Shown one piece after another: positions 23,106 to 27,845 of a stretch of DNA of 42,140 nt. How positions within the stretch are numbered: the stretch's first letter is position 1; each line of letters starts with the position of its first letter. The notes beneath the pieces are model-generated. The model searched no databases. It was given only the letters and a program-made list of their open reading frames with translations, and was not told the origin of the DNA. The position numbers and the translations under genes are program-made. This DNA comes from an uncultured Elusimicrobiales bacterium (GTDB lineage Bacteria; Elusimicrobiota; Elusimicrobia; Elusimicrobiales; Elusimicrobiaceae), in assembly GCA_944324675.1 (NCBI GenBank), contig CALUXE010000009.1, forward strand, positions 1 to 42,140, read 5' to 3'.

Positions 23106-23146
23106 ATTTCCCGAAGTAAATAAAAACGACTAAAAAGCAGTAAATT

Positions 23147-23152
23147 TATAAT
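23147..23152 (+). promoter_or_regulatory. -10 box before the structured RNA region
   Basis: TATAAT (23147-23152), with ACGACT 15 bases further upstream as a poor -35. A start near 23159 would give a transcript of about 170 bases to the T run at 23326-23331. Confidence 0.35.
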
Positions 23153-23169
23153 TTAAGACTGATTTTTTG

Positions 23170-23331
23170 GCGCCGGTTAACGCCCGGCCATATCAAAGAT
23201 AAAACTTTGATAAGCTTCAACCCCAAAAAATTGTCGCCAGTTATAGAAGCGTTCCGTCTTTAGGAGGGAATCGTTTCGGCGGCATATTTTTTCATGTGGG
23301 TTGAAGCTCATGGAAATTATGCCGCTTTTTT
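23170..23331 (+). ncRNA. Structured RNA candidate with competing folds
   Basis: Several clean pairings occur here. TATCAAAG (23191-23198) pairs with CTTTGATA (23205-23212). Immediately after, AGCTTCAACCC (23213-23223) is an exact complement of GGGTTGAAGCT (23298-23308), enclosing A6 (23225-23230) with T6 (23287-23292), TGTCGCC (23232-23238) with GGCGGCA (23278-23284), and an inner TTCC/GGAA hairpin. In the alternative fold GCGGCATA (23279-23286) pairs with TATGCCGC (23318-23325), followed by T6, a good terminator. The two folds exclude each other. It could be an attenuator or riboswitch, a free small RNA of about 170 bases (6S-like in length), or chance. Confidence 0.5.
23279..23331 (+). terminator. 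Terminator arm of the structured RNA
   Basis: Eight-base stem GCGGCATA/TATGCCGC, extended inward by partial T-A and CATG/CATG pairing, then T6. It may also end hisS-aspS transcripts. Confidence 0.75.
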
Positions 23332-23344
23332 ACGGCTTTATGTT

Positions 23345-23428
23345 ATGCTGATATTAAAAATTATTTTAGCGCTATGGCTTGTTTTGTTTTTGTTTTTCGC
23401 GTTGGTTTTCTTTTCCTCGGAGAATTAA
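23345..23428 (+). CDS. Possible 27-residue membrane peptide
   Basis: An ATG-started frame of 27 codons: MLILKIILALWLVLFLFF, then ALVFFSSEN. It would be a single hydrophobic helix with one Lys near the N-terminus and a polar C-terminus, the shape of many small regulatory or type I toxin peptides. It lies 14 bases after the terminator of the structured RNA. Against it: no ribosome-binding site is seen, and T-rich DNA readily yields hydrophobic frames of this length. The rest of 23429-23631 is AT-rich and holds no feature that I can support. Confidence 0.25.
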   Translation: MLILKIILALWLVLFLFFALVFFSSEN

Positions 23429-23631
23429 ATTTTATTTTTATATGGCTAACCGCGGCGAGCGCTTCCCTGGAAAATATAATTCCTTTGTTTTTTGTTCAAT
23501 TCTGCGATTCTTGAGCGAATTTTAAGGAATTAAGACCATTCGTGAAAAACGCTATTGCCCAAAATATAAATTATTGTTATATTTAATATAAAGGGGAAAC
23601 GCAGTTCGCGAAAAGGGAAAACGGATATTTT

Positions 23632-24738
23632 ATGTACAGATTTTTAGTATCGTTTTTATTTGTTTTATTTTTTGCGCCTTTAAACGCGCAGCATATGGTA
23701 AAGTATGTGACGTTTTATCCCGTACCCTACGGGAGCCATCAGAATCTTAACGTGACGGATACCGCTGTAATAAGCGGACGGGACGGTGGGGAAAGCGTTA
23801 TAGCCGGTACCCTTTCGGTCCCGTCGTCGCCGTTATTGGAAGGCAGCGTTTTATTGAATGTGCAAAGCGGAACCCAGCTTTCCATAAACTCCGCCATTCG
23901 ATCGGGCAATATAGATACCGCTACGACTTATGGCGAGGCGTATATGACGGGGACGGATATTTCCTTAAATAATTTCGACGAAGCGATAAAGGACGTCTAT
24001 GCGGCAGATACGGCAAATGTTAATTCTTCCGTGATATATGACGATAATACCTTGTCCAAATTGCTTGATTGCGGCGATGGAGAACCTTCTTGGAAAGCCC
24101 TGCGGCTTAAAGGCAGCGAGGAATGCAAATATTATTTGACCTGCGGCGGCAGCGGCAACAGCGGCTGCGAAGAAGCGCCGGATTTATCTCAGTGTGAGTT
24201 CGGGCCGTGGATAATTATGGATAGTAACGATAAGTCTGATACTTGCGGCAATTCGCCGAAACAAGGCTGCATACAGATTTCCCGCTGCGGCGCCTCCGAC
24301 AGACCGTGCTCCAAAATAAGAGAAGCGGTTTTTACCCAAGTACCCACGACGTTTAACTGCGGTATGGGGCAAAGTTTAAGCCAATATTGCTATGACAACA
24401 GCGCAAAATGCACGGAGCAAAGCGTAAGTTCCATTTGCCGTCAGCATGATGGCCCTAAGACTATGATAATAGACGGATCTTATACCCCAGTTGAGTATTG
24501 TTCTTTTTCCAATAAAGACGAACCGATGTACTGGTGTCGGGAAAATCCTTCCAGAAAAGGATGTTTGAGTTATTCTTCCTCCGATTCTTCTATGGCGTAT
24601 TCGGCTTGCTCTCAGTCTTATCATTTTAGCGGCGCCGCCTCTTATTGTATAGACGCAACCGTTAACATAATCGGTTATGTTTGCCAAGACGTGGAAGACA
24701 CTTCTACAATGTACTACAGAGTGTGCAACGTCATTTAA
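23632..24738 (+). CDS. Exported cysteine-rich protein of unknown function
   Basis: I do not recognise this 368-residue protein. A clear signal peptide (about 1-20, MYRFLVSFLFVLFFAPLNAQ) is followed directly by HMVKYVTFYPVPYGSHQ, which looks like the start of a defined N-terminal domain. Residues about 21-145 are Cys-free, Ser/Thr/Val-rich and strand-like. From about 148 to the end there are 20 cysteines, an even number, in motifs such as CKYYLTCGGSGNSGC and CSKIRE, suggesting a disulfide-bonded extracellular module. It could be a surface adhesin or fibre tip component. It stands alone: structured non-coding DNA before it, terminator hairpins after it. No strong ribosome-binding site is visible before the ATG. 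Confidence 0.8.
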   Translation: MYRFLVSFLFVLFFAPLNAQHMVKYVTFYPVPYGSHQNLNVTDTAVISGRDGGESVIAGTLSVPSSPLLEGSVLLNVQSGTQLSINSAIRSGNIDTATTYGEAYMTGTDISLNNFDEAIKDVYAADTANVNSSVIYDDNTLSKLLDCGDGEPSWKALRLKGSEECKYYLTCGGSGNSGCEEAPDLSQCEFGPWIIMDSNDKSDTCGNSPKQGCIQISRCGASDRPCSKIREAVFTQVPTTFNCGMGQSLSQYCYDNSAKCTEQSVSSICRQHDGPKTMIIDGSYTPVEYCSFSNKDEPMYWCRENPSRKGCLSYSSSDSSMAYSACSQSYHFSGAASYCIDATVNIIGYVCQDVEDTSTMYYRVCNVI

Positions 24739-24745
24739 GCCTCGG

Positions 24746-24807
24746 TTTTAGCTTAATAAAGGCCTTGGGAAATTTTATTCGAGGCCTTTGTTATTAAAGG
24801 CTAAAAG
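24746..24807. terminator. Long imperfect hairpin after the Cys-rich gene
   Basis: TTTTAGC...TTAATAAAGGCCT pairs with AGGCCTTTGTTATTAA...GCTAAAA. The core AAAGGCCT/AGGCCTTT is perfect; CTTTTT follows. It probably acts on the + strand transcript. Confidence 0.65.
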
Positions 24808-24829
24808 CTTTTTAAACAATAAGTTCCCA

Positions 24830-24854
24830 ATTCCTCTTATAGAGGAATATTTTT
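24830..24854 (+). terminator. Second terminator-like hairpin
   Basis: ATTCCTCT (24830-24837) and AGAGGAAT (24841-24848) with a 3-base loop, then ATTTTT. Confidence 0.65.
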
Positions 24855-24887
24855 ATTTGCTGGAAAAATTTGTGCAATTTCCAAATT

Positions 24888-24915
24888 AAAAACCCGCTTT
24901 AGCAAGCGGGTTTTT
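24888..24915. terminator. Bidirectional terminator before hydG end
   Basis: AACCCGCTT (24891-24899) and AAGCGGGTT (24904-24912), flanked by A5 on the left and T5 on the right, so it can stop transcripts from both sides, including hydG on the minus strand. Confidence 0.9.
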
Positions 24916-24935
24916 ATGTTGATACGTTTGATATT

Positions 24936-26303
24936 TTAGAAGTAAATATCTCTTTCTCCCCGCGCCACTTTTTCAAGATTGGCTTTGGTTTGGGCCGCTC
25001 TGGAAGGGGGGAGGTCCTTCATCATTTTATCTATCAGCGCCAAGCCCTTAGCCTTTAAATCGGGCGAGGCGAAATCGTATAGATATTCGGCGAAGGTAAA
25101 CATAGCGTTGGGCAGACAGTGAGCTTTTATCAACCCCGGTTTGGCCAGGTCCATAAAGTCTTTGCCGACGCGCCCCAGCCTATAACAGCCCGTACAGAAA
25201 GAGGGGATATAGCCGTGGTCGACGATATCGGATATTACGGCTTCCAAAGGTCTATGGTCGCCGCGTGTAAATTGCTCGTCGGCATTATCGTCCTCGTAGC
25301 CGCCAGGGTTGGTTTTGCTGCCGCCAGATATTTGGGATATCCCCAGTTCAAAAGCGGCGCGGCGCATTTGCGCGGTTTCGCGCGTGCTGAGTATTATGCC
25401 TGTATATGGTACGGCTATTCTCAGGACGGCGATAATCTTTTTAAAGTCTTCGTCGCTTACGGCGTAAGGCGGATTTTCGCTTAACGGAGAGCCGCAGGCG
25501 GGTTCTATCCTGGGTACCGAAATGGTATGAGGCCCGATGCCGAATTTGTTTTCCAAATCTTTGATGTGTTGGAGCATGGCCAATACTTCAAATTTATAGT
25601 CGTAAAGGCCGAGTAATGCGCCTATACCGACGTCGTTTAAGCCGGCTTGCAAAGCTCTGTGCATGCCCATAAGGCGGAACTCGTAATCGGCTTTTTTGCC
25701 GGCTATGTGCATTTTGCGGTAAGTGTCTTTATGATAGGTTTCCTGGAATAGCTGGAAGGTGCCTATATTATGTTTTTTTAGTTCCTTAAATTCTTCCAAG
25801 GTCAAGGGCGCAATATTGACGTTTACGCGCCTTATGTTGTTTTTGCCTTCTCTTACAGAGTAAATGGAATCTATGGAATCGAATACGTATTTAAGGCCTG
25901 CGCCGGTATAAGATTCGCCTGCGACCATAAGTATCCTTTTGTGGCCTTGTTTGAGCAGCGCCGAAGTTTCGTGTTTAACTTCGTCTTGGTTTAAAGCCTT
26001 CCTGTGCAGTTCTTTGTTGGAGGCCCTAAACGCGCAGTAGAGGCACTCGTTAAAGCAGACGTTTGAAATATATAAAGGGGCGAAAAGGACCAATCTGTTT
26101 CCGTAAATTTCCGTTTTGATATACTTTGCGGTTTTGTATAATTCTTCCAGCAAATCTTTGTCGGTAAGGTTAAGCAGGGCCGCGGCTTGCTCGAAGGAAA
26201 TGCCTTTAAGTTCGCGCGCCTGTGTAAGAATGTCTAAAATCTGTTGCTTGTCAGCTTTTTGGGTTTTAGATAAATTGTCAAAAATTTCATTTTCTTTTAT
26301 CAT
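24936..26303 (-). CDS. hydG: [FeFe]-hydrogenase maturase HydG
   Basis: Radical SAM tyrosine lyase that makes the CO and cyanide ligands of the hydrogenase H-cluster in the cytoplasm. The protein is 455 residues: SAM cluster motif in SNVCFNECLYCAFR (Cys83, Cys87, Cys90), the TIM-barrel region with GESYTGAGLKYVF, and the C-terminal auxiliary-cluster site SFCTGCYRLGRVGKDFM (Cys370, Cys373) that separates HydG from its relative ThiH. I chose ATG 26303 rather than TTG 26318: minus-strand TACAAT lies 6 bases before it, the same arrangement as at the sulfatase-like gene, and there is no ribosome-binding site. hydE is 4 kb away; hydF and hydrogenase subunits are not in the window. Confidence 0.95.
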   Translation of the reverse strand: MIKENEIFDNLSKTQKADKQQILDILTQARELKGISFEQAAALLNLTDKDLLEELYKTAKYIKTEIYGNRLVLFAPLYISNVCFNECLYCAFRASNKELHRKALNQDEVKHETSALLKQGHKRILMVAGESYTGAGLKYVFDSIDSIYSVREGKNNIRRVNVNIAPLTLEEFKELKKHNIGTFQLFQETYHKDTYRKMHIAGKKADYEFRLMGMHRALQAGLNDVGIGALLGLYDYKFEVLAMLQHIKDLENKFGIGPHTISVPRIEPACGSPLSENPPYAVSDEDFKKIIAVLRIAVPYTGIILSTRETAQMRRAAFELGISQISGGSKTNPGGYEDDNADEQFTRGDHRPLEAVISDIVDHGYIPSFCTGCYRLGRVGKDFMDLAKPGLIKAHCLPNAMFTFAEYLYDFASPDLKAKGLALIDKMMKDLPPSRAAQTKANLEKVARGERDIYF

Positions 26304-26309
26304 ACTTAT

Positions 26310-26315
26310 ATTGTA
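26310..26315 (-). promoter_or_regulatory. -10 box placed for leaderless hydG
   Basis: Minus-strand TACAAT, 6 bases before the ATG; the following bases ATAAGTATG match those at the sulfatase-like gene (10950-10958). No clear -35. Confidence 0.45.
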
Positions 26316-26367
26316 CAACTTTAAAGCGGTTAGGATATATTAAGCCTGCTTCTTATTGCCCTACGAT

Positions 26368-26396
26368 AAAAACCCGCCTGTTAAGGCGGGTTTTTT
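26368..26396. terminator. Bidirectional terminator between hydG and OMP gene
   Basis: AACCCGCCT (26371-26379) and AGGCGGGTT (26384-26392), A-run on one side and T6 on the other. On the minus strand it ends the outer-membrane protein gene. Confidence 0.88.
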
Positions 26397-26410
26397 AATA
26401 AGATCCGTTT

Positions 26411-27283
26411 TTACTTTGCGGCCAGGAACATATGGCTGAAGGAAAAACTTACTCCTACATATAAATTTTCGCCACGCGGGCCAACGTATTTGCCTTGGGC
26501 CGTATAATAATTGATAAAGGGCGCAACCGAAAGATTTTTTAGCACCAAAACATCAAGTCTTGCGTCCAATTCCAAGGAATAGTCCAAGTCGGTAGTCTGT
26601 TTTTCGCTTTCGTGGCAATAGTCCCTGAAGGTCCCGCTGAATTTAGCTTTTACCCCTTCCCTGATGTCGTATTCAAGCCCGATGCCGGCTTCATAACCGT
26701 ATTTTGTAGATTCTTGGGGATAAGTAAAATCGTATTCCATAAAGCCGGAGGCGAATAGAGTTTTAAGATATTTCCCTTCAAACAATTTCGCGCCGGCGCT
26801 GCCTCTTAACACTTTTTTGAGGGGGGAATCCGCGCTGGAGTTAAACTCGGTATCGTAAGCGAGCGAAACGAAAGGTCCGGCCTCAACCCCGCCCAAGAAA
26901 TTTTTTACGTTCCAAAGCCTTAAAGTGTAATCGGAGGAAAGCAAAATTCTGTCTGCGTTTTCGGTGGTAAGTTTTTCTCCTTGTACAGGCTTAATCGTGT
27001 TCTTGCCGTATTCCATAAACAAGGCGTTTGACCACAGATAATTTTTGCCGAAATAATCGCCCGCTAAATGCAGGCGTCCTTGAATGAGCCTTTGCGAGTC
27101 CGAATTTAATTTGGCGTTTGGGAAATCTTCATATTCCTGCGCGTGTTTAACTTCTGTTGAGCTTAAATCCAAAGCCAAGGATTTAAGTTCCACCTGCCAA
27201 CCGGTTTTCTTGTCTTGCTGGGCGTAAGAATTAAGAGCGGCCATTGCCGATAGAGCCAGCGCGATAAACAATTTTTTGTACAT
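26411..27283 (-). CDS. Exported outer-membrane beta-barrel-like protein
   Basis: A 290-residue exported protein. A signal peptide (about 1-21, MYKKLFIALALSAMAALNSYAQ) is followed by alternating polar and aromatic stretches typical of transmembrane beta strands (for example FLGGVEAGPFVSLAYDT and ENLYVGVSFSFSH). It ends MFLAAK, so the classic C-terminal Phe is not at the last position. There is no recognisable catalytic or binding motif. An AGGAGA site lies 7 bases before the ATG. It may be a small outer-membrane porin-like or structural protein; the family is not identified. It is read as a single gene bounded by terminators at 26368-26396 and 27348-27371. Confidence 0.75.
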   Translation of the reverse strand: MYKKLFIALALSAMAALNSYAQQDKKTGWQVELKSLALDLSSTEVKHAQEYEDFPNAKLNSDSQRLIQGRLHLAGDYFGKNYLWSNALFMEYGKNTIKPVQGEKLTTENADRILLSSDYTLRLWNVKNFLGGVEAGPFVSLAYDTEFNSSADSPLKKVLRGSAGAKLFEGKYLKTLFASGFMEYDFTYPQESTKYGYEAGIGLEYDIREGVKAKFSGTFRDYCHESEKQTTDLDYSLELDARLDVLVLKNLSVAPFINYYTAQGKYVGPRGENLYVGVSFSFSHMFLAAK

Positions 27284-27347
27284 TTATTTCTCCTATGTTT
27301 CAAATATTTATAAGTTTAAAAATCCGCGTTTTACGACGGCTAAATAA

Positions 27348-27371
27348 AACCCGCCTAATAAAGGGCGGACT
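27348..27371 (-). terminator. Terminator of mscL
   Basis: Minus strand AGTCCGCC/GGCGGGTT with two wobble pairs and an 8-base loop, then TTTAT. Confidence 0.75.
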
Positions 27372-27377
27372 TTAATG

Positions 27378-27845
27378 TTATTTAATTTCCGAAGTGCAGT
27401 TCGGGCACCTTACGGCATTAATATTGATTGTGGATTTGCAGAAGGGGCATTCTTTTGTGTTTGGCGCGGCTGGCGCGGGCGCGCTTCTTAATTTGCTAAT
27501 TATTTTAACAAGCATAAATACCGCCCAAGCGGTTATTAAAAAGCTGATGGTATTGTTTATAAAAGAGCCTAAATTTAAAATTACCGCCCCCGCGTTTTGA
27601 GCCGCTTCCACCGAAGGGTAAGGCCCTGCCGTATCCGCCCCGTTTTTGAGCGTGAAAAACAGTCCGCTGAAATTTATTTTGCTTAGCAGCAGACTTATGG
27701 GCGGCATTATCAAATCCTTTACTATCGAGTTTACCACCCCGTTAAACGCGGCGCCCAAAATAACACCTACCGCCATATCCACCATATTCCCTTTTACGGC
27801 GAAATTTTTGAAGTCTGTAAAAATACTTTTTATATATGCCGTCAT
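27378..27845 (-). CDS. mscL: Large-conductance mechanosensitive channel with zinc ribbon
   Basis: Inner-membrane channel that opens under membrane tension to release solutes during osmotic downshock. The protein is 155 residues. The MscL core (1-about 118) has NFAVKGNMVDMAVGVILGAAFN as helix 1 and VILNLGSFINNTISFLITAWAVFMLVK as helix 2. In place of the usual amphipathic C-terminal helix it ends in an Ala/Pro linker (SAPAPAAPNTK) and a compact zinc ribbon, CPFC-x10-CPNC, at about 133-151. AAGGAGG lies 6 bases before the ATG. Related MscL-zinc ribbon proteins exist elsewhere to my knowledge; the role of the ribbon is unclear. Confidence 0.95.
   Translation of the reverse strand: MTAYIKSIFTDFKNFAVKGNMVDMAVGVILGAAFNGVVNSIVKDLIMPPISLLLSKINFSGLFFTLKNGADTAGPYPSVEAAQNAGAVILNLGSFINNTISFLITAWAVFMLVKIISKLRSAPAPAAPNTKECPFCKSTININAVRCPNCTSEIK

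Follow-up and report, generated by a model that had tools for sequence, protein, structure and literature searches.

The DNA 3′ of aspS raises the question of whether an RNA that can adopt competing folds regulates a gene behind it or acts as an RNA in its own right. An earlier note on the window (the whole 42,140-nt stretch analysed, from the genome referred to here as G000) had seen in this region the logic of an attenuator or riboswitch, or equally a free RNA in the size range of 6S RNA. We examined the segment 23158–23331 of the + strand. The 11-base long-range pairing was confirmed base for base, with AGCTTCAACCC at 23213–23223 being the exact reverse complement of GGGTTGAAGCT at 23298–23308. 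The other pairings described were also present: the inner pairing of TGTCGCC (23232–23238) with GGCGGCA (23278–23284), the terminator pairing of GCGGCATA (23279–23286) with TATGCCGC (23318–23325) followed by T6 at 23326–23331, and an 8-base hairpin of TATCAAAG (23191–23198) and CTTTGATA (23205–23212) that adjoins the long-range helix.

The predicted minimum free energy (MFE) of the segment is −65.9 kcal/mol, compared with a mean of −41.7 kcal/mol for shuffled sequences (z = −5.67, with none of 200 shuffles as low), and perfect stems of 11 bp or longer were seen in two of 400 shuffles; these figures were computed post hoc, on data that had already been inspected. The MFE structure, defined as fold A, is the long-range hairpin 23213–23308. 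From outside to inside its helices are the 11-bp helix, CA/UG, AAAAAU/AUUUUU, UGUCGCC/GGCGGCA and an apical hairpin (23246–23277) that carries AGGAGGG at 23262–23268. The UGUCGCC strand at 23232–23238 thereby holds the 5′ arm of the terminator (23278–23284). Where the terminator was enforced in a constrained fold, defined as fold T, the energy was −60.1 kcal/mol, 5.8 kcal/mol above fold A. The intrinsic terminator (23278–23331) is longer than first described: its stem in fold T comprises 9 bp plus 8 bp (GGCGGCAUA/UAUGCCGCU and UUUUCAUG/CAUGGAAA), the 3′ arm of the long-range helix (GGGUUGAAGCU, 23298–23308) sits in its loop, and T6 follows.

Fold T also has a closing helix that was absent from the earlier note, formed by GAUUUUUUGG at 23161–23170 and CCAAAAAAUU at 23223–23232, which in the constrained fold encloses a three-way junction with two small hairpins. 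The 3′ strand of this helix is shared, since 23226–23231 pairs with 23286–23291 in fold A. Common to both folds are a small GCCGG/CCGGC hairpin at 23172–23188, the 8-bp hairpin UAUCAAAG/CUUUGAUA at 23191–23212 and the apical hairpin. The two folds are mutually exclusive as nested structures, as had been claimed, but their pairings cross and a pseudoknot is possible. In MFE predictions for the growing chain, the closing helix is present until ∼23295 and the long-range hairpin thereafter; in this model, the shared strands are used in the order expected of a conditional terminator. The equilibrium probability of the terminator (fold T) is near zero. The predicted default is therefore read-through, and a signal blocking fold A has to be postulated for termination.

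The suggestion of a 6S RNA was not borne out. The length and rod shape are those of 6S RNA (RF00013), and 6S RNA is otherwise undetected in these genomes. However, the Rfam 6S model gave no match to the RNA at E values up to 10, and the element is not conserved, being absent from nearly all relatives. In addition, fold A has no large central bubble between closing and terminal stems, its only internal interruption being a 7-nt one-sided bulge. We consider a divergent 6S RNA to be extremely improbable. The same model found nothing in this genome and 39 relatives (40 genomes), with five of 14 control genomes positive, and a literature search for 6S RNA in the phylum, whose name was assumed, produced no match. 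In this lineage, 6S RNA is either lost or too diverged to detect. The other Rfam families were rejected, as there was no real match and the weak ones (e.g. idnO and Spd-sr37) were at chance level.

We searched 90 genomes from the family as well as 60 relatives that extend into the order, and found the block containing the RNA in only one other genome, a member of the family (G008; contig CASEVY010000012.1, uncultured bacterium). The block begins near 23131 and is 97% identical between the two genomes over 23131–23345; the RNA itself is 96.5% identical, with five substitutions and one inserted T. For comparison, aspS is 91% identical (dS 0.51), the next larger gene (23632) is 68% identical, and 23430–23631 is essentially unalignable at 49% identity. 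Among all noncoding 150-nt intervals of the 42 kb, the RNA is the best conserved between G000 and G008 (0.98, compared with a median of 0.81).

The five substitutions in G008 all avoid the paired positions of fold A; the unpaired fraction is 0.353, and its fifth power is 0.0055, again a post hoc figure. The sole changes in the small hairpin (23181) and in the 8-bp hairpin (23199) are in the loops, and the 5′ arm of the long-range helix is identical. Two substitutions in the terminator stem preserve pairs, converting U-G to C-G and A-U to G-U. This is weak evidence because all five changes are transitions; the probability of pair preservation by chance is 0.1–0.2. The changes are compatible with both folds, in a comparison of two sequences that is too small for covariation. 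As regards conservation of the paired segments among relatives, on which the earlier note had staked its reading, these are kept in G008 but the searches detected no such element in the remaining genomes.

Genome G001 is closer to G000 in aspS (∼95% identity) and does not have the block. Its sequence 3′ of aspS (L004:2101–2285) is unrelated, folds slightly better than shuffles (z = −2.5) and was found in no other genome of the genus. Because only G008 has the block and the closer G001 is without it, the element appears from its distribution to be accessory (lost, gained or exchanged) and not a housekeeping RNA. A repeat or MITE-like element was rejected, as there is no second genomic copy, and DNA matches with E values of 0.002–0.2 in other relatives were rejected as short pieces, many of them T-rich. 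Phage and plasmid collections contained no match to the element. When viral and genome contigs were scanned for the pattern, the only ones returned were the contig of G008 itself and a haloarchaeal contig carrying both 11-mers, the latter probably a chance match.

Some further observations concern the window at large. The region from aspS to the next − strand gene (23110–24935) either has been exchanged between close relatives or evolves rapidly among them, and gene 23632 is only ∼70–76% identical to that of G001, compared with ∼95% for aspS. Between G000 and G001, 26301–27500 is 98.7–100% identical in surroundings of 86–95%, a recent recombination tract. At 26–1889, three ORFs in tandem have N-termini of the prepilin type (GFTLIEMLVVVLIIGIIAAIALP), as judged by eye.

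The earlier note had placed the nearest larger gene 300 bases downstream. This is correct for the gene at 23632–24738, but a small ORF directly downstream on the same strand had been overlooked. The ORF runs from ATG 23294 (GTG in G008) to TAA 23426–23428 and encodes 44 aa; an inner start, ATG 23345, lies 14 bases after the T-run and would give 27 aa that are mostly hydrophobic. One membrane span is predicted by eye. The ORF tail from 23345 is 88% identical between G000 and G008, and six of its 10 changes are synonymous (dS 0.477, dN 0.065). The dN/dS ratio is ∼0.14 in the ORF's own frame only, with dN exceeding dS in the other two frames, and the dS resembles that of aspS (0.513). A codon permutation test on the ORF alone gave P = 0.08. 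The conserved DNA stops directly after the ORF stop codon, not at the T-run. Given its dN/dS and this conservation edge, the ORF at 23294/23345–23428 is likely to be coding. A Shine-Dalgarno sequence is lacking at the inner ATG; the outer ATG is in a paired region and is preceded by GGCGG, which is paired in both folds. No family of Pfam or NCBIfam scored above cut-off with the peptide, which also matched no known toxin family and has no second copy in the genome. An ORF on the − strand (23177–23311) was rejected, as the inserted T in G008 shifts its frame.

The next larger gene is on the same strand, and the RNA might be its attenuator. However, a promoter scan gave TTGCCC-17-TATATT at 23555–23583, and this promoter is largely common to G000, G001 (where the first hexamer is TTGTTC), G008 and G017, two of which are without the RNA. 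Because of this conserved promoter of its own, gene 23632 appears to be independent of the RNA, and we rejected its attenuation as very improbable. Its product matched no Pfam or NCBIfam family.

Most relatives carry a terminator 3′ of aspS, and G001 has a similar stem, GGCGGCATA/TATGCCGCC, behind the gene. Both would fit an aspS terminator joined to an inert palindrome, with folds that have no regulatory role. Against this stand the 97% identity between unalignable flanks, the placing of all substitutions at unpaired positions, and the fact that other genomes manage with a simple terminator. A recent block exchange would account for the identity of the block but not for the 88% identity of the adjoining ORF tail. 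We therefore regard a plain terminator as distinctly unlikely.

The conserved block also contains a possible −10 element of an RNA promoter, TATAAT at 23147–23152, with a predicted start near 23159. No −35 is recognisable, and a two-hexamer promoter scan did not report the site. A shared promoter suggested by matches to 23143–23171 (G000, G008 and G017) was rejected, since those inspected were reversed and lay over the ends of unrelated coding genes. Together, TATAAT and T6 bound a 173-nt unit that has a strong fold and a higher identity than the ORF tail (96.5% versus 88%). These features are what would be expected of a free, stable sRNA of ∼173 nt acting in trans, either transcribed from a promoter of its own or cleaved from the 3′ end of aspS. 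The terminator would then be a mere 3′ end and the ORF secondary or spurious. However, the terminator is unformed in the stable fold, and conservation extends past the T-run to the ORF stop codon. On balance, we find a free sRNA rather unlikely.

The small hydrophobic peptide, together with the start region (GGCGG and ATG 23294) that is buried in both folds, could also indicate a type I toxin mRNA, in which long-distance pairing blocks translation of a small membrane peptide and a putative antisense RNA is the antitoxin. In the aapA/IsoA system of Helicobacter, the toxin mRNA encodes a small hydrophobic peptide, its start is buried, and metastable folds are followed by long-distance pairing (PMC6733600). 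The same scheme can be recognised here, with folds that share strands and a patchy presence among close relatives. In contrast to aapA/IsoA-like mRNAs, no antisense RNA was found: a scan limited to consensus-type promoters gave none for an antisense RNA in the conserved block and two − strand candidates in unconserved DNA. An intrinsic terminator within the 5′ part of the ORF is also foreign to the aapA/IsoA scheme, the element is single copy in the genome, and the peptide has no similarity to known toxin families. A type I toxin mRNA is thus unlikely.

The reading we favour, with a rough probability of 0.42, is that of an accessory, attenuator-type two-state leader which would conditionally terminate transcription before the ORF for a small hydrophobic, single-span membrane peptide. 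What was observed or computed in its support are the sequences, both folds as predicted together with their energies, the constraint seen on comparing two genomes, and the ORF. As anatomy, the attenuator or riboswitch logic is supported by two exclusive predicted folds 5.8 kcal/mol apart, one of them including an intrinsic terminator with its T-run, by the pair-preserving changes, and by the conserved ORF behind, which is on the same strand and likely coding. The fold beyond shuffles, the strand sharing, the conserved block and the unpaired substitutions all point the same way. Against a leader are the near-zero terminator at equilibrium, the availability of two sequences only, the codon permutation P of 0.08, the inner ATG without a Shine-Dalgarno sequence, the paired outer start, the lack of a recognisable −35 and the absence from G001.

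Attenuators and terminator riboswitches share with this element a 5′ junction, a closing helix whose 3′ strand is also used by a competing hairpin, an intrinsic terminator and an ORF. In contrast to them, this element has no known ligand class, was found in only two genomes, has read-through as its predicted default, and has a terminator that overlaps the possible 5′ part of the ORF. No described riboswitch or leader class was matched in the Rfam search. It is possible, though doubtful, that this is an undescribed class of two-state leader of the lineage which senses a signal and, by stopping transcription conditionally within the 5′ portion of the ORF behind it, regulates a single-span membrane peptide not seen before.

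In the leader that we favour, transcripts would arise from aspS or from the weak start near 23159. While the nascent RNA is short, the closing helix 23161–23170/23223–23232 would form. Once 23298–23308 has been synthesised, fold A could take over and sequester the 5′ arm of the terminator, leading to read-through into the peptide ORF. If the closing helix were stabilised, or the strand 23213–23232 occupied by a ligand, protein or antisense RNA, the terminator would form and an RNA of ∼173 nt would be released. Transcription, switching, the signal and the role of the peptide are what we infer here.

The element is small and well delimited, and can be tested in a reporter. It would be ordinary if it consisted merely of a terminator and an inert palindrome. 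If the leader reading is true, a bacterial lineage that has been little studied would possess an RNA switch tied to a very small membrane peptide of the kind overlooked by gene finders.
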